From contig JACQVE010000050.1 in NCBI GenBank assembly GCA_016209965.1, positions 1 to 32,450 of the forward strand: a stretch of DNA of 32,450 nt, read 5' to 3'. The notes beneath the pieces are model-generated. The model made no database searches. It was not told the DNA's origin and saw only the letters and a list, made by a program, of their open reading frames with translations. The position numbers were made by a program, and so were the translations under genes. Every line of letters starts with the position of its first letter. Position 1 is the stretch's first letter. Source of the DNA: Gemmatimonadota bacterium (GTDB taxonomy: Bacteria > Gemmatimonadota > Gemmatimonadetes > Longimicrobiales > RSA9). This document shows, one piece after another, positions 5,908 through 20,141 of this stretch.

Positions 5908-6981
5908 TCATGGCTGCCACCTGGCCTCCAACGGTGTCACCAGGGCATCCAGCCGGCTGGCCAGCTGGGACTCCCCCGACTCCACCGCCACGCTCTGTTC
6001 GAGCACCCAAAGCTGCACGTCGGGGAGCAGCTCGCGGAGCTTGATGGCATCCTTCGCCGTGGTTACCACCGGGCGCCCCCCGGACGCCCGACGAATGCGG
6101 CCGGCAGCGCGGGCGTCGTAGTGGTAGTGGTCCGGGAGAGCGAACATCTCCGCCACTTGCGCTCCGGACTGCCGTGCCTGAGCCAGGAAAAGGTCCGGCC
6201 GCGCGACGCCTGCCACCCCCACGACCTCTCCTCGCGGAGTTTCCTGCCCCCCGCTGCCCTCGAGCGCGCGCCTCCATCCCGCGGCCCTGAGCTCGAGCCG
6301 CACCACGTCCGCTGCGGGCGCAAGCTCACGAACCTCCCGCGCCACCTGCTGCGATGCTTCAGGCGGCGCGACCTTCCGGGTCACGGCAACAACCTGCGCG
6401 CGTGCCAGGGCGGAAACCGGTTCCCGCCAGGGGCCGCGAGGCAGCAGGTGCGGCGAGCGGCACCACCCCTCGGCGGTGACCAGCACCAGATCGAGGTCGC
6501 GCGCCAGCCGAAGGTGTTGGAACCCATCATCCAGCACCAGCACGGTGGCGCCGCCGGCTGCTGCTTTCTCCGCTGCCGCGACCCGATCGCGCCCCACCAG
6601 CACGGGTACCTCCGGGTACCAGGCCCGATGCAGCTCCGGCTCGTCGCCGCCGTATCCGCCGTGGAGCACGGCCGGGCGAGCTCCTCGACTGAGGAGCTGC
6701 TCTACCACCCACCGTGCCACTGGCGTCTTCCCTGTCCCGCCTACCACCAGGTTGCCGACGCTCACGACAGGCACTGCGGCCCGCGCCGCTTCGGGCCAGC
6801 CGGAGGCATGGAGGCGGGTGCGCAGCGCCAGGGCTACGCGGTAGATCAGCTCCGCGGGTGCGAGACACCACCCCCAGGCCCCGGCGTCCGAATCATCCCA
6901 CCACAGCCGGCGTAAGCCCGCGAACCGCTGGGAAGCAAGGGTTCCCGCTGCCGGTCCCTCAGCCGCGCTGACCTCGGCCAT
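5908..6981 (-). CDS. lpxK: tetraacyldisaccharide 4'-kinase LpxK
   Basis: LpxK phosphorylates the 4' position of the tetraacyldisaccharide 1-phosphate intermediate to give lipid IVA, at the inner face of the inner membrane. The 357-residue protein carries [20 protein letters not shown], with the P-loop GGTGKT at 81-86, then [12 protein letters not shown] and the family-diagnostic [20 protein letters not shown] (DDGFQH at 151-156). It ends with a domain containing [17 protein letters not shown] and [11 protein letters not shown], both typical of LpxK. The ATG at 6981 has GAGGAAG three bases upstream. It overlaps the preceding DUF374 acyltransferase gene by 23 bases. It is the last recognisable lipid A gene of the cluster. 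Confidence 0.95.
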
Positions 6982-7612
6982 CCACTTCCTCGAGCAGCCG
7001 GTTCAGCTCGTCCTCCAGCAGCCGGGCCTGGCGGCGCAGCTCTCGCGCATCCGCGCCCCGCGGGATCTCCCGGGGGGCGCCGTAGGCCACGCACACCCTG
7101 GCAAAGGGCCGGGGGAGAAGGAAGCGGTCCCAGCTCCGGACCCACCAGGCGCGGTCGGCTCCAGCTGCCATGGGCACGAGCGGCAACCCGCTGAGCTGCG
7201 CCGCCACGACCGCTCCCAGCTTCACCTTCTGGCGCGGCCCCCGTGGCCCATCCGGTGTGAAGGCAAGCGTTCGGCCGGCCCTGGCATGGCGCAGCAGCTC
7301 CCGCAACCCCCCGCGTCCGCCACGCGTGCTCGAGCCCCGCACAACGGCATAGCCCCAGCGCTCCATGATGCGGGTGATGTACTCCCCGTCCCGCGAGCGG
7401 CTGACCAGGGTGGTAATTCCTTGCCGGCGGTGGAGGTAGGTGAGCGGCAGGAGCCGGCCGTGCCAGAGTGCGAAAATTACCGGCCGGCCCCCGTCCCACA
7501 GGCACTGGTAGTTCTCCGCACCGCGCACCTCGAAGTGCAGCGTGGCAAGCCAGGCATCGAGCACCCCACGCCCCGCGGACCCGACCAGCCAGTGGCGCAG
7601 TCCGCGTCTCAC
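6959..7612 (-). CDS. DUF374 lysophospholipid acyltransferase-like protein (possible LpxJ-type lipid A acyltransferase)
   Basis: This 217-residue protein belongs to the DUF374 group of acyltransferase-like proteins. Visible blocks are VIFALWHGRLLPL (His51), VSRSRDGEYI (70-79), VRGSSTRGG (91-99) and AFTPDGPRGPRQKVK (117-131), in the order expected for a glycerolipid-acyltransferase fold. It starts at GTG 7612 in a GTGA overlap with the lpxB stop and overlaps lpxK by 23 bases. The Helicobacter/Campylobacter lipid A secondary acyltransferase LpxJ is a DUF374 protein. Position between lpxB and lpxK therefore makes a late acylation role in lipid A plausible here, by inference. No LpxL/LpxM-type gene is present in the window. 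Substrate and acyl donor are unknown. Confidence 0.82.
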   Translation of the reverse strand: MRRGLRHWLVGSAGRGVLDAWLATLHFEVRGAENYQCLWDGGRPVIFALWHGRLLPLTYLHRRQGITTLVSRSRDGEYITRIMERWGYAVVRGSSTRGGRGGLRELLRHARAGRTLAFTPDGPRGPRQKVKLGAVVAAQLSGLPLVPMAAGADRAWWVRSWDRFLLPRPFARVCVAYGAPREIPRGADARELRRQARLLEDELNRLLEEVDGRGQRG

Positions 7613-8748
7613 GCCGCGCCCGCCAGTAGCTCGGCGGCCATTCGGGTCACGCGTCTGGCTGCCGTACCCGCGTTGTCGGCGTGGGGGTAGGCCAGCGCAG
7701 CGCGCACCCTGCCCAGCCCCTCTATGACGCTGCGGCGAGTCGAGGACTCGGCTCGCAGCAGCGAGATTACGGCGTCGCTGAGCGCGGCGGGCGTCGCCTG
7801 CTCCTGCACCAGCTCGGGCACCAGCCGCTCCCCGGCCACGAGATTCACCAGCCCGATGTGCGGCACCTTCACCAGCCGCCGGGCCAGCCACAGCGTGGCG
7901 GGGTGGGCTCGATAAGCAATCACCATGGGCACGCCGGCCAGTGCCGCCTCCAGGGTCGTCGTCCCCGACTTCACGAGCGCAGCGTCAGAGTGTGCCAGCA
8001 GCTCCCGTGCGTTCAAGACTCGGGGGTACCCCGCCCCTAGGTACGCGGCCGGCGAAAGCACCGGTGACTGGGCAATGACTGGCTGAACCTCGGCGCGCCG
8101 CAGCCCGATCCGGCGCGCCGTCTCGAGAAAGAGATGCAGGTGGCGGTTGAGCTCCTGGGCGCGCGAGCCCGGAAAAAGGGCCAGGATCGGACGCCCAGGA
8201 TCGAGCCCCACCCGCCGGCAAAACTCTTCGCGCGACGACTCCACCGGCGGCAGATCCAGGAGCGGGTGGCCGACGAACTCTGCCCGTGCGCCGGCCGCCT
8301 GGAACAGCGGCTCCTCGAAGGGCAGCACGAGCGCCATCCGATCGGCACGTTCCGCGAGCTGCTTCACCCGGCCTTCATGCCACGCCCAGACCTGAGGCGC
8401 AATGTAATACAAGACCGGAATGGCGCGGTCGCGCGCCAGGCGAGCCAGCCGCAGGTTAAAACCGGGATAGTCAATCAGCAGGAGGAGCTCCGCACCCCGC
8501 GCCTCCAGCTCCCGCCGCAGCCGCTGCAGTAAACGCGCAAAGTACGGCAGGTGCTGGATGACCTCGGCAAAGCCCATGACGCCGAGGCGGTCCAGGTCGG
8601 CCAGCAGCTCGACCCCGGCTTCGGCCATGCGCGGGCCGCCCAGCCCAAAGAGCTGGACGTCTGGCCACTGCCGCCTCAGCTCGCGGGCGACGGCGGCACC
8701 ATGAAGGTCACCGGACAGCTCGCCCGCCGACAGGAAGACTGTACGCAC
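7609..8748 (-). CDS. lpxB: lipid-A-disaccharide synthase LpxB
   Basis: LpxB (GT19) condenses UDP-2,3-diacylglucosamine with lipid X to make the beta-1,6 disaccharide of lipid A. The 379-residue protein matches the family length. It begins VFLSAGELSGDLHGA, followed by FGLGGPRMAEAGVELL, LGVMGFAEVIQHLP, LLIDYPGFNLRLA, YYIAPQVWAWHEGRVKQL and FVGHPLLD. The C-terminal sugar-nucleotide domain contains LFPGSRAQELNRH and VKSGTTTLEAALAGVPMVIAYR. The start is GTG at 8748 with GAGGGAG just upstream; this Shine-Dalgarno overlaps the stop of the micro-ORF at 8756-8872. It ends in a GTGA overlap with the acyltransferase gene. Confidence 0.96.
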   Translation of the reverse strand: MRTVFLSAGELSGDLHGAAVARELRRQWPDVQLFGLGGPRMAEAGVELLADLDRLGVMGFAEVIQHLPYFARLLQRLRRELEARGAELLLLIDYPGFNLRLARLARDRAIPVLYYIAPQVWAWHEGRVKQLAERADRMALVLPFEEPLFQAAGARAEFVGHPLLDLPPVESSREEFCRRVGLDPGRPILALFPGSRAQELNRHLHLFLETARRIGLRRAEVQPVIAQSPVLSPAAYLGAGYPRVLNARELLAHSDAALVKSGTTTLEAALAGVPMVIAYRAHPATLWLARRLVKVPHIGLVNLVAGERLVPELVQEQATPAALSDAVISLLRAESSTRRSVIEGLGRVRAALAYPHADNAGTAARRVTRMAAELLAGAA

Positions 8749-8755
8749 CGCTCCC

Positions 8756-8872
8756 TCACACGATCCGGCTCAAGTACCAGATCAGCAGCAGCACCAGGCC
8801 GAGGGCCGCGACCAGCTTCCACAGCGGAGGCGGCCTTCCCGGACCCCGGGCTCTTTCACGCCGGCCCTGCAT
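8756..8872 (-). CDS. 38-residue single-pass membrane micro-protein, unknown function
   Basis: A short ORF fills the gap between the oxidoreductase gene and lpxB. It has a basic N-terminus (MQGRRERARGPGRPPP), then LWKLVAALGLVLLLIWYL as one transmembrane helix, then SRIV. Positive charge on the N-terminal side predicts a cytoplasmic N-terminus. The ATG at 8872 overlaps the upstream stop by 17 bases; a second in-frame ATG at 8881 would add three residues. Its TGA lies inside the ribosome-binding region of lpxB (GTGTGAGGGAGCGGTG), so its translation would end where lpxB translation begins. No homologue is recognised. It could be a genuine operon protein or a translational coupling device. The exact fit between neighbours and the compact helix argue against chance. 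Confidence 0.55.
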   Translation of the reverse strand: MQGRRERARGPGRPPPLWKLVAALGLVLLLIWYLSRIV

Positions 8873-9845
8873 GAGCGACATGTCCCTCGATTCTCTGCAC
8901 GATCTCCAGTGCAACCGCCAGTGCGCGCCGCCCCTCTGCGCCCGAAACGCTCACGGGAGTCCGCCCCGCAACTGCCGCGACGAAGCTCTCCAGCTCACAG
9001 CGGAGCGGCTCGACTCCATCGCCATCGAAGGAGATGCGTTCCACCACGTCGTGCAGGGAGCTGGCGCCGAGCGGCGTACCCGGATCCAGCACCACGCCCG
9101 GACGCAGGCGCAGGAACACGCCGCGTCCCGCCGCCAGGTCAAGACTGATGTAGCCCGATCGCTGGAAGAAGCGAATCTTCCGCATCCTCTCGAGCGAGAC
9201 CCGGCTGGCCGTGAGGTTGGCCACGGCGCCCCCCTCGAATTCCAGCCGCGCGTTCGCGATATCCGGACTCGGCGTCAGCACCGGCACGCCGGCCGCGGCG
9301 ATCGCCGTCACACCGCGCCGCATCACACTGAGCACCAGGTCCAGGTCATGAATCATGAGGTCCAGCACAACGGGCACATCCGTGCCCCGTCGCCCGAATG
9401 GCGCCAGCCGGTGGCTCTCGACGAATAGCGGTTCGTCCAGGTACGGCTCGCACGCCCGCAACGCACGGTTGAAGCGCTCCACGTGCCCGATCTGCACCAC
9501 ACTCCCGGTGGCGGCCGCGGCTTCCAGGATCCGGTCGGCCGCCTCCAGCGTCAGGGCAATCGGCTTCTCGATCAACACGTGCACTCCCTGGCGCAGCGCA
9601 GCGCAAGCCACGGCCTCGTGTGCCGGCGTCGGAACCGCAACGACCAGCGCGTCCACGGCCTCCAGCAGTGCCTCGAGACGTTCGAAAGCCGGCACCCCAA
9701 TGCTGCGCCCCACCTCCGCCAAACGGCCGGGCTCCGCGTCGTGGACGCCCGCCAGCTTCGCCAAGGGCAGGTTGCTCAGCAATCGGGCGTGATGAAAGCC
9801 CACACTCCCGACCCCGGCCACACCGAGCCGCAGCCGCTCCGGCAT
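8856..9845 (-). CDS. Gfo/Idh/MocA family oxidoreductase in the lipid A cluster (GnnA-like position)
   Basis: An NAD(P)-dependent sugar oxidoreductase of about 329 residues. The N-terminal Rossmann motif GVAGVGSVGFHHARLL has GVGSVG at 11-16. It is followed by VVAVPTPAHEAVA and the family lysine in VLIEKPIALT (EKP at 93-95). The second half has the GFO-type C-terminal sheet (GHVERFNRAL, LDLMIHDLDLVL). The ATG at 9845 lies 5 bases after the lpxA stop; a longer in-frame extension runs through antisense lpxA sequence and is rejected. In Acidithiobacillus, gnnA (same superfamily) and the aminotransferase gnnB lie between lpxA and lpxB and make the 3-amino sugar precursor of lipid A. Here only the oxidoreductase is present, so the substrate is open: UDP-GlcNAc or another nucleotide sugar. 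Confidence 0.88.
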   Translation of the reverse strand: MPERLRLGVAGVGSVGFHHARLLSNLPLAKLAGVHDAEPGRLAEVGRSIGVPAFERLEALLEAVDALVVAVPTPAHEAVACAALRQGVHVLIEKPIALTLEAADRILEAAAATGSVVQIGHVERFNRALRACEPYLDEPLFVESHRLAPFGRRGTDVPVVLDLMIHDLDLVLSVMRRGVTAIAAAGVPVLTPSPDIANARLEFEGGAVANLTASRVSLERMRKIRFFQRSGYISLDLAAGRGVFLRLRPGVVLDPGTPLGASSLHDVVERISFDGDGVEPLRCELESFVAAVAGRTPVSVSGAEGRRALAVALEIVQRIEGHVAHAGPA

Positions 9846-9850
9846 TGCGC

Positions 9851-10648
9851 TCAGAGAGAGATCCCGCGATCGCTCTCTTCGACAAAGGCGAGAAAGCGGT
9901 CGACTTCCGGGAAGAGTTCCAGCTCGAGGCGGGCGCGTTCCAGCGCTTGCGTCACGTTGAGAGCCTCGTGGAAAAAGAGGCGGTACGCCCGCTTCAGCTC
10001 GCGGCGCACTTCCTCCGCAAGGCCGCGGCGCTGCAGCCCCACGCTGTTCAAGCCGTACAACCGGATCGGGTTGCCGGCCGCCTTCACGTACGGCGGCACG
10101 TCCTTGGGCACGCGCGAGGCGCCGCCCACAAACGCATGGCAGCCGATGCGCACGAACTGGTGGACCGCCGTCAGGCCACCCACGATGGCGAACTCCTCGA
10201 TCCGGACGTGTCCGCCCATGTTGACGGCGTTGGACAGGATGACGTGGTCGCCGATCACACAGTCGTGGGCCACATGGGCGTAGGCCATAATCAGGCAGTT
10301 GCACCCGACCTCGGTCACGCCGCGAGCTGCCGTGCCGCGATTCAGCGTCGCATATTCCCGCACCACGGTCCGGTCCCCTACCGTCAGCAGCGTCGCTTCG
10401 CCGGCGTATTTCAGGTCCTGGGGATCCGTGCCCAGCACCGCTCCATAGTGGATGGCGCAACCCTCGCCAATGCGCGTATCCCGCTCGATGAGCACGTGCG
10501 CGCCCAGCCGCGTGCCCGCGCCTATCAGGACATTGGGCCCGACAATCGAGTACGGCCCCACAACCACGTCGGCGCCCAGCTCCGCGCCGCGGTCGACGAT
10601 CGCGGTCGGGTGCACCTCGGCGGAAGGCAGCACGTTAGCGTCTAGCAT
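9851..10648 (-). CDS. lpxA: UDP-N-acetylglucosamine acyltransferase LpxA
   Basis: LpxA is the first enzyme of lipid A synthesis, moving an R-3-hydroxyacyl chain from ACP to the 3 position of UDP-GlcNAc. The 265-residue protein is a left-handed beta-helix with hexapeptide repeats, plus the LpxA C-terminal helical domain (GLQRRGLAEEVRRELKRAYR). DPQDLKYAGE at 75-84 and AYAHVAHDCVIGD hold the catalytic His (H128, equivalent to E. coli H125). The Gly pair in AFVGGASRV includes the position of E. coli Gly173, a residue that sets acyl chain length; its retention is compatible with a long chain, by inference. The ATG at 10648 has GGAGG upstream, 13 bases after the lpxC/fabZ stop. The next gene starts 5 bases downstream. 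Confidence 0.96.
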   Translation of the reverse strand: MLDANVLPSAEVHPTAIVDRGAELGADVVVGPYSIVGPNVLIGAGTRLGAHVLIERDTRIGEGCAIHYGAVLGTDPQDLKYAGEATLLTVGDRTVVREYATLNRGTAARGVTEVGCNCLIMAYAHVAHDCVIGDHVILSNAVNMGGHVRIEEFAIVGGLTAVHQFVRIGCHAFVGGASRVPKDVPPYVKAAGNPIRLYGLNSVGLQRRGLAEEVRRELKRAYRLFFHEALNVTQALERARLELELFPEVDRFLAFVEESDRGISL

Positions 10649-10661
10649 TCCTGCTGCCTCC

Positions 10662-11948
10662 TCAGCGCTCCACGATCCGCGCCATCATTTCGGCCTCCGC
10701 CACGACCTGACCGTCCACGGTGCCAACTCCGCGCATGCGGCAGACGTGCCGCCGGAACTGGAGCATCTCCAGCTCGAAACGGATCTGGTCTCCCGGCGTT
10801 ACCGGGCGCCGCCACTTCACGTTGTCCAGCGACATGAAGTAGACAACCTTCCCTTCCGGGTTTTCTACCGCATCCATGAGCAGCAAGCCGCCCACTTGCG
10901 CCATGGCCTCGATGATCAGGACGCCCGGCATGATGGGGTGACCCGGGTAGTGACCCTGGAAGAACGGCTCGTTGATCGTGACGTTCTTGATACCCACGAT
11001 CCGCTTGCCGGGCTCGAATTCGACCACCCGGTCTACCAGGAGCATCGGGTAGCGATGCGGGAGATACTGCATGATCTTCTGGATGTCCACGATGGGGCGC
11101 ATACCCTGGCTGCTCCCCACCCGCAACAGCTCGCGCGCCAGTGCGAGATTCCCGGCGTGGCTCGGGCGGTCCGCCACCACATGCGCCCGCAGCCGCCGCC
11201 CCAACAGCGCCAGATCGCCAATCACGTCGCCGATCTTGTGGCGCACGAACTCGTCCGGGAAACGCAGCTCCCCTGCCGCCAGCCCGGAGTCGTCCAGCAC
11301 GATGGCGTTCTCCAGACTCGCGCCCAAGGCCAGGCCGCGTGCCCGCAACTGCTCCGCCTCTCGCAGAAAGCCGAAGGTGCGGGCCGGCGCCACCGCCTCC
11401 GCAAAATCCCGCGGCTGCACGTCGAAGGAGCCGAACTGCCGCTGCACCAGCGGATGATCAAATTCGATGCTGGCGGACACTCGCAGCCCGCCGGCGGAGC
11501 CCGCCAGATAGGAAGCACCGGCCTCTGCGACCTGCACCGGGTCGCGCAGCTCCAGCACTTCCGCTGCCCTGTCCTGGGCCACAACCCCCGCTCCGCCCAG
11601 CAGATCGACGAAAGGCCGGAAGCTCCCGTCCATGATGGGAACCTCCGGCCCGTCCAGCTCGATCCACAAGTTGTCGATCTCCAGCGCCGCCACCGCGGCC
11701 AGCACATGCTCTACCGTGTGGACGCGCACGGAATCCGCCGCCAACGTCGTACTCCGCTCCGTGGAGGCCACGTGCTCGAGGTCCGCCGGAACCTCGGGCG
11801 CCCCCTCCACATCAACTCGGCGGAAGCGACGCCCCGTACCCGGCTCTGCCGCACGGAAGCGGAGCACGGCCCGCTCCCCGGTGTGCAAGCCGGCCCCCTC
11901 TAACTGGACCGCGGCTCCGATGGTCTGCTGGCGCGGCGAGGAGCTCAT
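10662..11948 (-). CDS. lpxC/fabZ: fused UDP-3-O-acyl-GlcNAc deacetylase / 3-hydroxyacyl-ACP dehydratase (LpxC-FabZ)
   Basis: One 428-residue ORF joins two enzymes. Residues about 7-272 are LpxC, the zinc deacetylase that commits to lipid A synthesis. Zinc ligands fit H81 (HTVEH), H237 and D241 (HKIGDVIGD), with E80 and H264 (RPSHAGN) in the active site. Residues about 287-428 are FabZ, the fatty-acid dehydratase: [17 protein letters not shown], catalytic H333 in [12 protein letters not shown] and E347 in IEAMAQ. The linker of about 15 residues has no stop or frameshift. Both active sites look intact, so both activities are expected. They compete for the same R-3-hydroxyacyl-ACP pool, and fusion fixes their ratio. 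The fusion is known in Bacteroidota and relatives. The start is in an ATGA overlap with lpxD. Confidence 0.96.
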
Positions 11949-12976
11949 GTGTCGGATGAGGTGCGGCGTAGTAACTTCAATTCCAAAGCCTGGATGCGCT
12001 TCACCAGCTCAGGCAGGCGAAAGAGCGCCGCCTGGGCCCGCAGCGCCTGCTTGTGAGGGCGGGCCGGGTAGCCACTATAGACCGCCCCTGCCGGCACATC
12101 CCCGAACACACCCGCTCGCGCGGCAATGGTCGCGCCATCGCCCACCTCGACATGGCCGGGCAGCCCGGCCTGACCGGCCAGCGTTACACGCCGGCCCACG
12201 GTGGTGCTCCCCGCGATCCCGACCTGCGCCACAATCACGCTGTGCTCGCCAACGCGCACGTTGTGGCCGATGTGGACGAGGTTGTCGATCTTGACGCCGT
12301 CGCCGATTTCGGTCGCTCCGATCGAGCCTCGGTCAATGGTGGTGTTCGCTCCGATCTCGACATCGGCGCCGATCACGCACTCGCCCACCTGCGGGATCTT
12401 ATGATGGGCGCCATCGATTTGCACGTAGCCGAAGCCGTCCACGCCTACGCGCACGCCGCTGTGCAGAATGGAGCGCGGCCCAATGCGCACACGGGGGTAC
12501 AGCGTCACGTGGGGATAGAGCACCACGTCGTCGGCGAGAGTACACTGGGCTCCCACGACGGTATGGGCGCCAATGCGAACGCGGTCCCCCATCCGTGCGC
12601 CGGTGCCGATAACGGCGTAAGGCCCGATGGTCGCAGCCGCGCCCATGGCCACACCCGCGGCGAGCACTGCGGTGGGATGGACTCCCGGCTCTGCTGTAGG
12701 CTCGGGATAGAGCCGGGGGAGCAACGCTGCGAGCGCGCGATGTACGTCGCTGACGACGATGCGGGGCCCCTTCGGCGCTGCCCGCGCGGCCAAGGTCGGT
12801 GAGACGAGGAGCGCCCCGGCTCGGGCGCGCGGAACATGGGGGAGGTAGCGGGGGTGCGCAAGGAACGACAACTGCTGCGGCCCGGCGCGGTCCAGCGGTG
12901 CCACGCCTGTGAGTTCGGGGTCCCCCTCGCCTTCGAGGCTGCCCCCGACCAGGACGGCGATCTCCGATGCTCTCAC
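11945..12976 (-). CDS. lpxD: UDP-3-O-(3-hydroxyacyl)glucosamine N-acyltransferase LpxD
   Basis: LpxD adds the second R-3-hydroxyacyl chain, to the 2-amino group of UDP-3-O-acylglucosamine. The 343-residue protein has the N-terminal uridine-binding domain ([12 protein letters not shown]), then a left-handed beta-helix of hexapeptide repeats from about residue 100. [18 protein letters not shown] and [15 protein letters not shown] hold the conserved histidines of the active site. The C-terminal helix ([18 protein letters not shown]) completes the fold. The start is GTG at 12976 with no strong Shine-Dalgarno, 43 bases after the skp stop. The gene ends in an ATGA overlap with lpxC/fabZ. Confidence 0.96.
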
Positions 12977-13019: not shown

Positions 13020-13550
13020 CTAGGGCTGCTTGTTGGCCGTGGCCTTCAGCCGTGTTAGTACCTTCTCCGTGATGTCCAGTGCAGGATCCGCTGCAATCAG
13101 GCCACCCGCCGCCGCATCCAGGATGAGCGAGTACGCCTCTTCCTTGCGGATCTCGTTGATCACGGCGCTAATCTTGGTCATGATGGGCTGCACCAGCTCC
13201 GCCTGCCGCTTCGTCGCCTGATCCTCGAGCTGACCCGCCCGCTGCTGGAATTCCCGCTGCTTGGTGCGGATCGCTTCCTCGCGCGTGCGCTTGACCTCCG
13301 GGGAAAGCATGACCTGCTGCTGGTCGTATTCGCCTACCATCTTCTTGAGATCGGTCTCGAGCTGATCCAGCTCCCCCTTGTAGCGGGCCATGTCCTTCTC
13401 GAACGCCTGTCTCGCCTCCTTGGCGCCGGGCGCCTCGGCCATGATCTTCTGGGAGTCGATGTAGGCGAGCTTCGGAACCTGCGCCCACCCGGGCGTGGTC
13501 ACACCCATCAGGCCGGCAGCCGTCACCAGACTCTTCACCAAAGTTCGCAT
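13020..13550 (-). CDS. skp: periplasmic OmpH/Skp-family chaperone
   Basis: Skp/OmpH is a trimeric periplasmic chaperone that holds unfolded outer-membrane proteins and passes them to BamA. The 176-residue product has a Sec signal peptide ([20 protein letters not shown], cleavage likely after GWA). The mature start, [20 protein letters not shown], is the family signature. Long charged coiled-coil arms follow from about residue 35 to 140. The C-terminal strand [20 protein letters not shown] and the final helix match the body domain. I chose the ATG at 13550; the in-frame extension upstream would overlap bamA and places a charged stretch before the signal peptide. It is 25 bases after the bamA stop, the usual bamA-skp-lpxD order. 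Confidence 0.93.
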
Positions 13551-13575
13551 CCTGAGGATTCTCTCTTTCTCGCGG

Positions 13576-16007
13576 TTAGAACGTAGGGCCAAGCTTGAAA
13601 TGGAGCTGCCAGCCCGGTACCACCTTGTCGAACCCGTACGCGTAATCTAGGCCCAACGGGCCGAACGGCGTGACCAGGGTCACGCCCAGACCGGCGCCCC
13701 TGAGCAGTCGGGTCGGGTTGATCTCCCGCGGGCTGCGCCACACATTGCCTGCGTCGTAAAACAGGGACAAAGACAGGTTGTCGTTGAAGCGCACGGCGTA
13801 TTCCGCACTCAAGCGCAGGTACGCGTCGCCGAAGCGGTCCTCGAGCAGAACGCCCGGTACACCGCGGGGAATGTGGCCGCGCGGCGTGACCGTGGTTTCC
13901 TCATAGCCGCGCAGCGGACGGCCGAACTGGACGCCGCCCATCCAGAAGCGCTCAAAGGGGAAGCGCTCGGCGTTGCCGAAGAGCGCGCCGGCCTCCGCGC
14001 TAACCCCCAGCGTGAACCGGATGGGTCGGCTCCCCGGTTGGCCGCCTCCCACCTGACCTGCCGGAACGTACCAGCTCGCACCGGCCGTGTATTTCTGGAA
14101 ATCGCCGTCCCCCCCGAGCAGCCCGCCGCTGAAGCTCCCCTCCAGCTCGTGCCGCGTCCCCGAAACCGGGAACAGCGGGTGGTCCAGCGTGTTACGCACC
14201 AGGCTGAGCGAGATCGTGCTCTGCACCCCGGGCGGCAAGGCGAAGAGGGATGCCGTCTCGAGCCCCGAGGCCTGCTGGTACGTGGTCCGGGAAAGCGAGT
14301 AGCCCAGGAAGACGCGGCTCCACCGGTCGGTCGGCAGCGGGAGACCAAAGCGCAATGATCCCCCCGTGCGCCGCCGCTGCCCCTCCGAGAAGCGGAAGAA
14401 CCTGTCCCGCGCACTGAAGAGGGACGCCGAACCACTGACGCGCGAGCCCAGCATGGCCGGATCGCTGTAGCTCGCCTCGAGATTGTTGGAGAACCTGCCA
14501 AACTCCCAGCGCAGGTGCCCCGCCTTGGCTTGCCCGAACAGGTTGGGCTGATCGTAGCCCAGGAAGCCGGCAACCCCCGTACCGCCGCCCAGCGCCGTGC
14601 CGAAGTTGATCGCGCCCGTCTGCCGCTCCTTGACGTCAAAGGTGATGTCGACATCCCCCTTGTCATTCGGCTGGATGTCCGGCAGCGGCAGCGGGGTCTC
14701 GAAGAAGCCCAGGGCCATCACGTTCTTGTAGCTCTGGATCAGCAGATCCTCGTTGTACACATCCCCCGGGAGCAGCAGGATCCGGTCGCGGATCACGTTC
14801 TCGTGCGTGAAGGTGTTGCCCGTGACGCTCACCCGGTTCACGTAGGCGGGCTCGCCCTCCCGGATCTCCCAGGCAACCTGCACGGCCGGCTCGCCCCCGG
14901 CCGTCTCGGTGCGCTCGATCACCGGCTGCACACGCGCATACAGGTATCCCTGGTTGCGGTAAAGCTGGGATACCCGGTCCGTAGCCCTCTGGAAGGCAAC
15001 CTGATCGAACACGCCGCCTCCCTCTTTGCCGCCGTCGCTGCCAAAGCCCAGCCCCCGCAGCAAGCCGCCCCGCTCGCGGTCGAAGTAGCGCTTCAGCTCG
15101 TCGGCCGGGAACCGGCGGTTCCCGCGCACATCGAACGCCGCCAACTGGTAGCGCTCCCCCTCGTTCACCTTCACCACCAGCCTGGCCTTCCCCCTCTCCG
15201 GGTCCACGACCAGCGTGTCACCCCCCACCGCGAAATCGATGTAGCCCCGCTGCGCGTAGAACTCGGGCAGCTTGTCGCGCAGGTCGGCCTGCAGCTTGGC
15301 CTCTTCGTACGTGCCGTCCCGGAACCAGAAGAAGCCCTCTGGCTTGGTGTCGAGAGCCTTGCGCAGCTGCTCGTCATCAAACACCTGGTTGCCCTCGAAC
15401 TCCACGGCGGCGAGCGCGATACGGTGGCCTTCCGTCACCTGGAAGACGAGCCGCTGCTCGCCCGGCCGGTCGCGGATCGGCTCCAGGCGATGCTCGATCG
15501 CCCGCACACGGTACCCCTTGTCCGCCAACAGCTTGCGCATCATGTGCTCCGCTTCGGCCACCTTCGACGGCCGCAGCGGCACGCCGGGATTCAGCCCCAC
15601 GGTGTCTCGAACCGTGCGGCCATTCACGTGCTCGAGCCCGCGGAACTCGACGTCGCCTATATAGGGCTGTTCCGCCACCTGCACCACCAGCACGACGGGG
15701 GCGGACGGGCCCCCGCCGGCCTGCCGCGCGTATACCTGCACGTCGCGATAATGCCCCGATACCCAGAGCCGGCGGATCGCGCGCTGGATCTCGCGGAAGG
15801 TGATCGTGTCCCCCGCACGCAGCCCCGACTCCGCCTGTACCACCGCCTCGGGCCGGCGCTGGTTGCCCTGCACCTTTACGCTGTCGATGACCACCGGGCC
15901 AGCCGCCGCCGCTTGCTCCTGCGCGAACAGAATGGCGGCGCCTGGCCACGCCAGGGCCGCCAGGAGCAGGGTGACCAGAATGGCGAGCCCCGTCTGGACT
16001 ACTCCCC

Positions 16008-16011
<4 letters not shown>
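13576..16011 (-). CDS. bamA: outer membrane protein assembly factor BamA
   Basis: BamA inserts beta-barrel proteins into the outer membrane. The 811-residue protein has a signal peptide (hydrophobic core around 8-30) and a series of POTRA domains to about residue 420 (for example VIDSVKVQGNQRRPEAVV, LAAVEFEGNQVFDDEQL, YVNRVSVTGNTFTHENVI). A 16-stranded barrel completes it. The loop 6 motif appears as RPLRGYEE, the counterpart of VRGF. The barrel ends FGPLGLDYAYGFDK...KLGPTF with a terminal Phe, as expected for a Bam substrate. Its ATG lies in an ATGA overlap with the clpC stop, an unusual neighbour. A Gly-rich insert (GFGSDGGKEGGG) interrupts one POTRA. skp, lpxD and lpxC/fabZ follow. Confidence 0.96.
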
Positions 16012-18482
<2,471 letters not shown>

Positions 18483-18525
18483 GGTGCGCCTCGTCGCCGG
18501 AGACACCTGTCAACGGAACCGCCGT

Positions 18526-19644
18526 TCATCCCTCGCCTGCCTCCCCGGTCGCCTCCGTGTCCGCCGAGACCAGGCCCTCAGTGGCCAGGACGCGGCGCAC
18601 ATACGCTGCACGATGCAGATCGCTTTCTGCTTCCGACAGCGGGCGGCCCGCCGCCTGCTCGAGGTGGGCAGCCTGGGTGTAGACCATGATTTTGTTGAGC
18701 GTGTATACACTGAGCCCGGGGAGTAGTTTCATGCTGGCGCCCAGTCGAACCCCGCTCAGCAGGTTCATCACCTCCTCGAAGGAAAGGGCGCGCGCATAGC
18801 GCAAGAGGCCGTACGCTCGCCAGATCTTGTCCTCGATCACCCTGGGGGCGTCTCGCCGGAGGACATGGCGCGCCTGCAGCTCGTACTGGATGACCTGGCT
18901 GGCGATCTTCTGCAGGTGGTCGATCAGGTCCTCCTCGCTCTTACCCAGCGTGGTCTGGTTCGAGAGCTGGAAGAAGTTGCCTACCACCTCCGACCCCTCG
19001 CCGTACAGGCCGCGAAACGTGAGCCCAACCTGGCTGATCCCCTGCAGCACCCGCCCGATCTCCTTGGTCAGCACAAGCCCCGGCAGATGGATGAGGATCG
19101 ATGCACGCAATCCCGTTCCTACATTGGTCGGGCAACTGGTCAGATAGCCGAACTCGTGGTGGTACGCCAGCGGCAGCTGGCGCCCCAGCTCCTCATCGAG
19201 GCGGTCCACCATCTCGTACGCCTCGCGCAACTGCAGGCCGGAGAGGATGCTCTGCAGGCGCAGATGGTCCTCCTCGTTGATCATCACCCCGATCACCTCT
19301 CGGCGACCGAGGAAGAGCCCGGTCCCTTGCCGCGGCTCCTCGGCGTTCGCTCCGGCCAGGTCCCGGGAAATCAAGTGCCGCTCGAGCAGGAGCTGCCGCG
19401 AGAGGTTGGCCAGCTTCGAGATCTCCAGGGCTACGCCGTCCCGCAAGCTGCTGGACCGCTCCGCCGCTTCGCGTACGCTGCGGAAGATCTCGATCCGCTC
19501 CGCGTCGCGCAGCCGGTTGCCGAACGCCTGCGCCTGGAGGTTCCGCGCCAGGCGCACACGCGTCGACCAGACGATGTCCGCATGCGGGCCGCTCGCCTCG
19601 AGCCACGCCAGACCAAAGTCGCCTGCAGCCGTAAAATCCACCAT
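18526..19644 (-). CDS. mcsB: protein arginine kinase McsB
   Basis: McsB, a phosphagen-kinase relative, phosphorylates arginine side chains and so marks proteins for ClpCP. The product is 372 residues (Bacillus McsB is about 363). The kinase core is intact: VWSTRVRLARNLQ (25-37), VMINEEDHLRLQ (120-131) and SCPTNVGTGLRAS (170-182) with the conserved Cys171. The C-terminal helical domain follows (from about 270). The family's phosphoarginine-sensing RDxxRA motif reads SDLHRA at 341-346, so its first Arg is replaced. The ATG at 19644 shares one base with the mcsA stop (TGATG). A longer in-frame ORF reaching 20136 is only the off-frame shadow of mcsA. Confidence 0.95.
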   Translation of the reverse strand: MVDFTAAGDFGLAWLEASGPHADIVWSTRVRLARNLQAQAFGNRLRDAERIEIFRSVREAAERSSSLRDGVALEISKLANLSRQLLLERHLISRDLAGANAEEPRQGTGLFLGRREVIGVMINEEDHLRLQSILSGLQLREAYEMVDRLDEELGRQLPLAYHHEFGYLTSCPTNVGTGLRASILIHLPGLVLTKEIGRVLQGISQVGLTFRGLYGEGSEVVGNFFQLSNQTTLGKSEEDLIDHLQKIASQVIQYELQARHVLRRDAPRVIEDKIWRAYGLLRYARALSFEEVMNLLSGVRLGASMKLLPGLSVYTLNKIMVYTQAAHLEQAAGRPLSEAESDLHRAAYVRRVLATEGLVSADTEATGEAGEG

Positions 19645-20141
19645 CACAGCCTGGCCTCTGCCTCCCGGATCTGATCCCGGAGCTGCGCCGCCCGCTCGAA
19701 ATCCTCGCTCTCCACGGCCTTCTCCAGCTTCCGCTTCAGCCCCGCCAGCCGATGCTGCCGCTCTGCTTTCGTCGGGTCGGGCGGCAAGTAGACTTTCCCG
19801 ACATGTTGCGTGCCACCGTGCAGGCGCCGCAAGAGACTGCGCAGATGCGGCTCGAACGTAACATAGCAGTGCGAGCAGCCGAAGCGGCCAGTCTTCTTGA
19901 AGTCCTCGAGCCGCAGGCCGCAGTAAGAGCAGGGGCCCGGCGCCGCCGCGGATTCCGCCGGCCCGCCCTTCCCCATCTGGGCCAGGAAGTCGGTGAGCGG
20001 GAAATTGGCCACGCTCACGCCCGGCTCCAACCCCTTTTCTGCCGCACACTTCTCGCACAGATGGAACGTGCTCATCTGGTTGTTCACGATTTGCGTGAGG
20101 TGCAGCACCGCTTCGTGCTTGCCGCAATGATCGCACAACAT
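19644..20141 (-). CDS. mcsA: McsA, zinc-binding activator of McsB (UvrB/UvrC motif protein)
   Basis: McsA binds McsB and raises its arginine-kinase activity. The 165-residue protein has four zinc-type Cys pairs: C3/C6 (CDHC), C29/C32 (CEKC), C71/C74 (CSYC) and C89/C92 (CSHC). A C-terminal UVR motif follows at about 134-162 (LKRKLEKAVESEDFERAAQL), related to the one in ClpC. This is the normal McsA architecture and length. It starts 8 bases after lolD. In Bacillus the operon is ctsR-mcsA-mcsB-clpC. Here lolD occupies the upstream position, there is no ctsR, and the small gap leaves no room for a CtsR-controlled promoter directly before mcsA. Confidence 0.93.
   Translation of the reverse strand: MLCDHCGKHEAVLHLTQIVNNQMSTFHLCEKCAAEKGLEPGVSVANFPLTDFLAQMGKGGPAESAAAPGPCSYCGLRLEDFKKTGRFGCSHCYVTFEPHLRSLLRRLHGGTQHVGKVYLPPDPTKAERQHRLAGLKRKLEKAVESEDFERAAQLRDQIREAEARL

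Follow-up and report, generated by a model that had tools for sequence, protein, structure and literature searches.

The window, by which we mean the whole 32,450-nt stretch of DNA analyzed here, carries on its minus strand an envelope operon that is transcribed in the order bamA-like, ompH, lpxD, lpxC-fabZ fusion, lpxA, Gfo/Idh oxidoreductase, micro-ORF, lpxB, DUF374 gene, lpxK. The first three genes encode a BamA-like Omp85 protein (13576..16011; PF07244 and PF01103), a Skp-like OmpH (13020..13592; PF03938) and LpxD (11945..12976; PF04613), and they are followed by an lpxC-fabZ fusion of 428 amino acids in which PF03331 and PF07977 fall within one ORF (10662..11948), by lpxA (9851..10648; PF13720 and PF00132) and by the gene for a GnnA-like Gfo/Idh/MocA oxidoreductase of 329 amino acids (8856..9845; PF01408), referred to below as gnnA. 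Beyond the micro-ORF lie lpxB, which has a GTG start and encodes 379 amino acids (7609..8748; PF02684 at 9.2e-95 and TIGR00215 above its cut-off), and lpxK (5908..6981; PF02606), all on the minus strand. The best NCBIfam match of the oxidoreductase was UDP-N-acetylglucosamine 3-dehydrogenase (NF040723), which at 165.8 bits stayed under the cut-off of 450. The presence between lpxA and lpxB of a Gfo/Idh gene resembling UDP-GlcNAc 3-dehydrogenase is a hint of amide-linked (GlcN3N) lipid A. Next to the envelope operon, a Clp ATPase gene (16008-18506) is adjoined by an ORF (18526-20136, minus strand) in which an ATP:guanido phosphotransferase domain is recognized.

An earlier note on this DNA had described the micro-ORF as a 38-residue frame starting inside the end of the oxidoreductase gene. 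The frame exists on the minus strand, running from an ATG at 8872-8870 to a TGA at 8758-8756 (translation MQGRRERARGPGRPPPLWKLVAALGLVLLLIWYLSRIV), and does begin within that gene, which ends at 8856, with its start corrected to an in-frame ATG at 8881, nine bases 5' of 8872. We assign the start to 8881 rather than 8872 because this upstream ATG is conserved across relatives; the corrected micro-ORF (8756..8881, minus strand) encodes 41 amino acids beginning MSLMQGRRER (MSLMQGRRERARGPGRPPPLWKLVAALGLVLLLIWYLSRIV), with a basic N-terminal segment and one predicted transmembrane helix, and the main start is probably not that of the 38-residue inner form (8756..8872, minus strand). Among the 58 micro-ORF loci read in detail, 57 start with ATG and only two have Met at position 4, and Ser2 and Leu3 are at least 90% conserved in a diverse alignment. 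Most members are 41-48 amino acids long, with up to 53 in some loci of family f3. The chance of meeting a comparable frame, taken as an ATG-started ORF of 35-50 amino acids containing a strongly hydrophobic 17-mer, was 6 in 20,000 for first-order Markov sequences and 2 in 20,000 for shuffles of the 167-nt spacer.

Both ends of the micro-ORF are interlocked with its neighbors. The start overlaps the end of the oxidoreductase gene by 26 nt (8856..8881, minus strand), where the inner start would overlap it by 17 nt, and in all 51 loci with gnnA upstream the two genes overlap by 14-38 nt in an identical relative frame (26 nt in 27 loci, 32 nt in 18). A GAGGG 5' of the ATG and within the oxidoreductase gene (8884..8888, minus strand) is a weak candidate for the micro-ORF ribosome-binding site, and a Shine-Dalgarno-like motif precedes the micro-ORF in only 25 of the 58 loci. 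At the other end, a Shine-Dalgarno-like GAGGGAG (8751..8757, minus strand) precedes the lpxB GTG at 8748 and has two bases in common with the TGA of the micro-ORF, so that the stop does lie, as had been claimed, within the lpxB ribosome-binding region. Across the 58 loci the gap from the micro-ORF stop to the nominal lpxB start has a median of 18 nt and a range of -2 to 310, and is 20 nt or less in 31.

Selection and the predicted protein

The micro-ORF frame is subject to purifying selection. For 50 distinct 132-nt ORFs compared in 211 pairs over codons 13-44, a region that lies outside the gnnA overlap, pN/pS in the micro-ORF frame was 0.234 at 90-99.5% identity, 0.311 at 80-90% and 0.410 at 70-80%, whereas the same codons read in the other two frames gave 1.24-2.80. 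This set comprises the 44-residue members only, the 41-residue copy of the window being excluded, and as the pairs share ancestry the values are to be read as a contrast between frames and not as an independent-sample test. The comparison of synonymous with non-synonymous change, which had been proposed as a check, thus came out in favor of a coding sequence. At seven loci (L089, L092-L097) the interval from lpxA to lpxB yielded no gnnA, and the N-terminus is still MSLI-like there, with L095 reading N at the third residue.

Hydropathy and AlphaFold2 both predict a single transmembrane helix. The AlphaFold2 model, built from 22 members, has a short helix at residues 5-11 and a long helix at 20-40; the blocks of the long helix have pLDDT values of 93 and 96 within a model of mean pLDDT 78.4 and pTM 0.40. 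Column entropy over 24 diverse members places a conserved stripe along this helix at L26, L30, V33, I37 and L40 (44-residue numbering), and the conservation moment at 100 degrees exceeded that of shuffles (p=0.0019). Homologues, profile matches, pN/pS, the helix face and the modeled helix together support the proposal of a real small membrane protein.

The protein had also been called unrecognized, and no convincing match to it emerged from Pfam, NCBIfam, PHROGs or the PDB. Scans of 44 members against Pfam and NCBIfam gave no match over a curated cut-off, the best E values being 0.0083 for Pfam (S1FA) and 0.014 for NCBIfam (YldA), each for one member, and the best scores of the window protein itself were 12 bits against a cut-off of 27 (DotU) and 12.9 against 65 (GspL). 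A PHROGs search with 22 members returned no significant match (best E 0.026), no PDB chain matched at E<=1, and no Rfam family reached its gathering score within 7400-10000. In the literature covered, which mostly excluded subscription journals, nothing recognizable about the protein was found. Judged from sequence, the micro-ORF is a previously unnamed, selected protein family in the Gemmatimonadota envelope operon.

Distribution and a genus without detected LpxB

LpxB is present in 58 of the 61 nearest genomes, and the DNA upstream of lpxB was read for 56 of these, with G017 and G037, whose lpxB fragments lie at contig ends, excluded. The earlier note had held that frames broken in close relatives with the flanking genes kept would speak against the ORF. 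It withstood this check: at 52 of the 56 loci a hydrophobic ORF stops somewhere from -160 to +60 relative to lpxB (L035 being counted only as a fragment, since a contig end cuts the ORF), though at L030, L038 and L072 the micro-ORF is wholly missing from between two retained flanking genes. At L022 a hydrophobic ORF lies at -311 of lpxB, beyond the main distance range. A profile scan of the same loci was likewise positive in 52 of 56, missing L030, L035, L038 and L072, and is no independent confirmation because 44 of these ORFs, plus seven from other LpxB-matched loci, made up its training set. All 11 other genomes examined from the family of the window (G001-G011) have the micro-ORF.

Across the phylum, the profile matched at E<=0.01 in 178 of 395 genomes, the weakest of these matches being at chance level. 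Strong matches lie in families f1, f2, f3, f7 and f9, and two more come from f11, which does not belong to the class of the window; a similar hydrophobic ORF lies 5' of lpxB in all four lpxB-bearing f11 genomes examined (L144, L145, L146 and L149), with a profile score of only 1.5e-4 at L146. Families f4 and f5 gave matches with E values near 0.005, and other phyla gave some at 0.0036-0.03; we regard all of these as chance. There were no profile matches in four genomes from the phylum of G402 or in 47 from that of G406, and these empty results show little because neither phylum provided an internal positive control. We also compared the positions of the micro-ORF and lpxB in further genomes, using a set that lies outside the first 61 genomes and was drawn from 80, with 17 further candidates left out. 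Adjacency was kept in 74 of the 75 genomes with both a profile match and LpxB, the micro-ORF standing directly 5' of lpxB on a common contig and strand and ending 7-116 nt (median 29) ahead of the LpxB match. The sole exception, G248, reflects a contig break, its micro-ORF and lpxB lying at the ends of two contigs.

Several lineages have LpxB and no adjacent micro-ORF. No such ORF was present within 500 nt upstream in any of 18 lpxB loci of f4 and f5, nor within 500 nt 5' of lpxB in G098 (f6) and G273, and a genome-wide profile search of G013, G014 and G048 recovered none; its absence in these lpxB-bearing lineages implies that the micro-ORF is not needed everywhere. In f8, the profile matched less strongly in G203 (8.3e-6) and G133 (1.6e-5), at a site bounded by lpxA and the DUF374 gene, and the lpxB of these genomes is on another contig. 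At the f8 loci L178 and L179, lpxB is gone from the lipid A operon and sits on a separate contig, and the micro-ORF has lpxA on one side and the DUF374 gene on the other.

The converse situation was found in genus g93 of family f7, in which all six genomes have the micro-ORF. Searches of five of these (all but G463), the genomes of the genus being drafts of 71-90% completeness, found LpxB in none, LpxK in none, and no LpxC in four; the fifth, G152, has only a C-terminal part of LpxC, fused to FabZ and abutting a 100-base N gap. The same searches in five genomes of the sister genus found LpxC and LpxK in all five and LpxB, full or partial, in four, plus G097. The genome-wide searches in g93 covered LpxB, LpxC and LpxK. 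An LptD Pfam model matched none of 14 genomes and says nothing on g93, because LPS-bearing genomes were negative as well. From its gene content, g93 looks like a genus that has lost lipid A synthesis, in a phylum in which Kdo2-lipid A synthesis is reported to be common in several habitat groups (PMC11651109).

The gene order retained in g93 is fabZ, micro-ORF, nadB at L156, L157, L158, L160 and L186; at L159, fabZ and the micro-ORF are visible before the contig ends, and ompH stands ahead of fabZ in G147 and G463, the two genomes read there. FabZ is separate in four g93 loci, as opposed to the LpxC-FabZ fusion of the window, with the partial LpxC attached in G152. The micro-ORF frame remains constrained in this genus: over six sequences its pN/pS came to 0.255, with pS at 0.50, whereas the alternative frames gave 1.21 and 3.10. 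This selection, together with synonymous sites so divergent, implies that the g93 copy is no recent leftover.

Role of the microprotein

The micro-ORF almost certainly encodes a real protein, and would yield a selected bitopic microprotein of about 40-48 amino acids. It is very probably a single-pass inner-membrane protein, with an N-in topology predicted because the N-terminus is basic: the R/K-rich N-terminal segment would remain cytoplasmic, lying against acidic lipid, while the helix would span the inner membrane N-in, C-out, following the positive-inside rule. We consider it probable, from the conservation pattern, that the protein acts by helix-helix contact with a partner, its leucine-rich face (L26, L30, V33, I37 and L40) packing onto another membrane helix, either of its own copy or of that partner. 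We have considerable confidence that its role extends beyond LpxB. The microprotein may serve an envelope-biogenesis partner that is distinct from LpxB, because in g93 it has survived the apparent loss of lipid A genes and still stands beside fabZ. Taken whole, the reading toward which we lean slightly is that of a bitopic inner-membrane microprotein, oriented N-in, that would act independently of lipid A by binding, through its conserved leucine-rich face, some envelope partner that is not LpxB. Since most copies adjoin lpxB, a role in lipid A may still hold in most lineages. We put forward more tentatively the broader proposal of a Gemmatimonadota-specific envelope microprotein, of an age that would fit its presence in two classes. 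In that proposal it is a hitherto unnamed subunit or regulator of envelope biogenesis, required whether lipid A is present or absent, and its partner is a core component of the inner membrane or of outer-membrane assembly.

The protein could instead be a lipid A factor for a step other than that of LpxB, with a second role in g93 or merely lingering there. We think this unlikely: the lipid A gene neighborhood in nearly every genome and the retention of the micro-ORF beside lpxA in f8 would both be expected of such a factor, yet selection in g93 is as strong as that elsewhere.

A possible partnership with LpxB was suggested in the earlier note. A dedicated partner would bring this peripheral enzyme to the inner membrane, as its anchor or its activator, and the position of the micro-ORF directly 5' of lpxB in 74 of 75 lpxB-bearing genomes is in keeping with it. 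The E. coli enzyme can be cited on both sides, as its LpxB is described (PMC5785501) as associating with the membrane through its own hydrophobic and basic surface; membrane association makes a membrane helper conceivable, whereas the use of its own surface argues against one. The suggestion was weakened by genomes in which the two genes part company, with the micro-ORF kept in g93 where no LpxB was found, LpxB alone at the 18 f4 and f5 loci, and the two on separate contigs in G133 and G203, where the micro-ORF lies between lpxA and the DUF374 gene. An obligate partner, occurring only with and beside LpxB, fails on these same three groups, and we judge a dedicated LpxB partner of any kind to be quite improbable.

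The interlocked gene ends raise a further alternative, also anticipated in the earlier note, in which translation of the micro-ORF matters and its product does not, the frame serving as a leader or coupling peptide that carries ribosomes from gnnA to lpxB. The overlap with gnnA, which keeps one relative frame at 51 of 51 loci, and a stop that falls in the ribosome-binding region of lpxB, and no more than 20 nt from lpxB at 31 of 58 loci, do suggest translational coupling inside the envelope operon, although with gaps to lpxB of up to 310 nt the coupling distance is exceeded there. Coupling may therefore exist, but it does not stand as the sole role. A product free to vary is at odds with selection on the amino-acid sequence (0.23-0.41, and 0.255 in g93) and with the conserved helix face, and the sequence is conserved even where lpxB or gnnA is missing from the locus, which makes a pure coupling peptide very unlikely. 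More doubtful still is a hydrophobic type I toxin peptide, which has nothing in its favor except that the protein is small and has one hydrophobic helix, and is opposed by membership of a sense-strand operon with conserved synteny and by the empty Rfam scan of 7400-10000. Overprinting, in which gnnA codon bias would hold open a frame that is no gene, could account for a start that overlaps a coding gene, but is effectively ruled out by selection measured outside the overlap, where most of the micro-ORF lies, and by conservation at loci with no gnnA found upstream.

The value of g93 is that it separates an lpxB neighbor from an lpxB partner, and it serves as a natural experiment in which to see which parts of an outer-membrane operon are kept once lipid A goes. 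With the micro-ORF, the envelope operon of this widespread phylum gains an unnamed, selected protein family, and the case carries a warning that small ORFs should not take their names from the adjoining gene.

Comparison with known systems

YldA (NF041476) and Ecr (NF033861), two NCBIfam families whose members are small membrane proteins, gave weak matches of 0.014 and 0.041, each to one of the 44 micro-ORF members; these are at chance level and, on such evidence, the families are not homologues. LapB, LapC and LapD, which regulate LpxC, offer a parallel in the inner-membrane control of the E. coli lipid A pathway. The micro-ORF protein stands apart from them in having about 40 amino acids and in persisting where searches found no lpx genes. 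Closer in form are the small single-pass regulatory or accessory membrane proteins CydX, MgrB and AcrZ, which like the micro-ORF protein have fewer than about 50 amino acids, one hydrophobic helix and conservation across species. CydX lies in one operon with its partner. The micro-ORF protein differs from all three in that no sequence relation was found and in that its gene outlasts the neighboring pathway genes.
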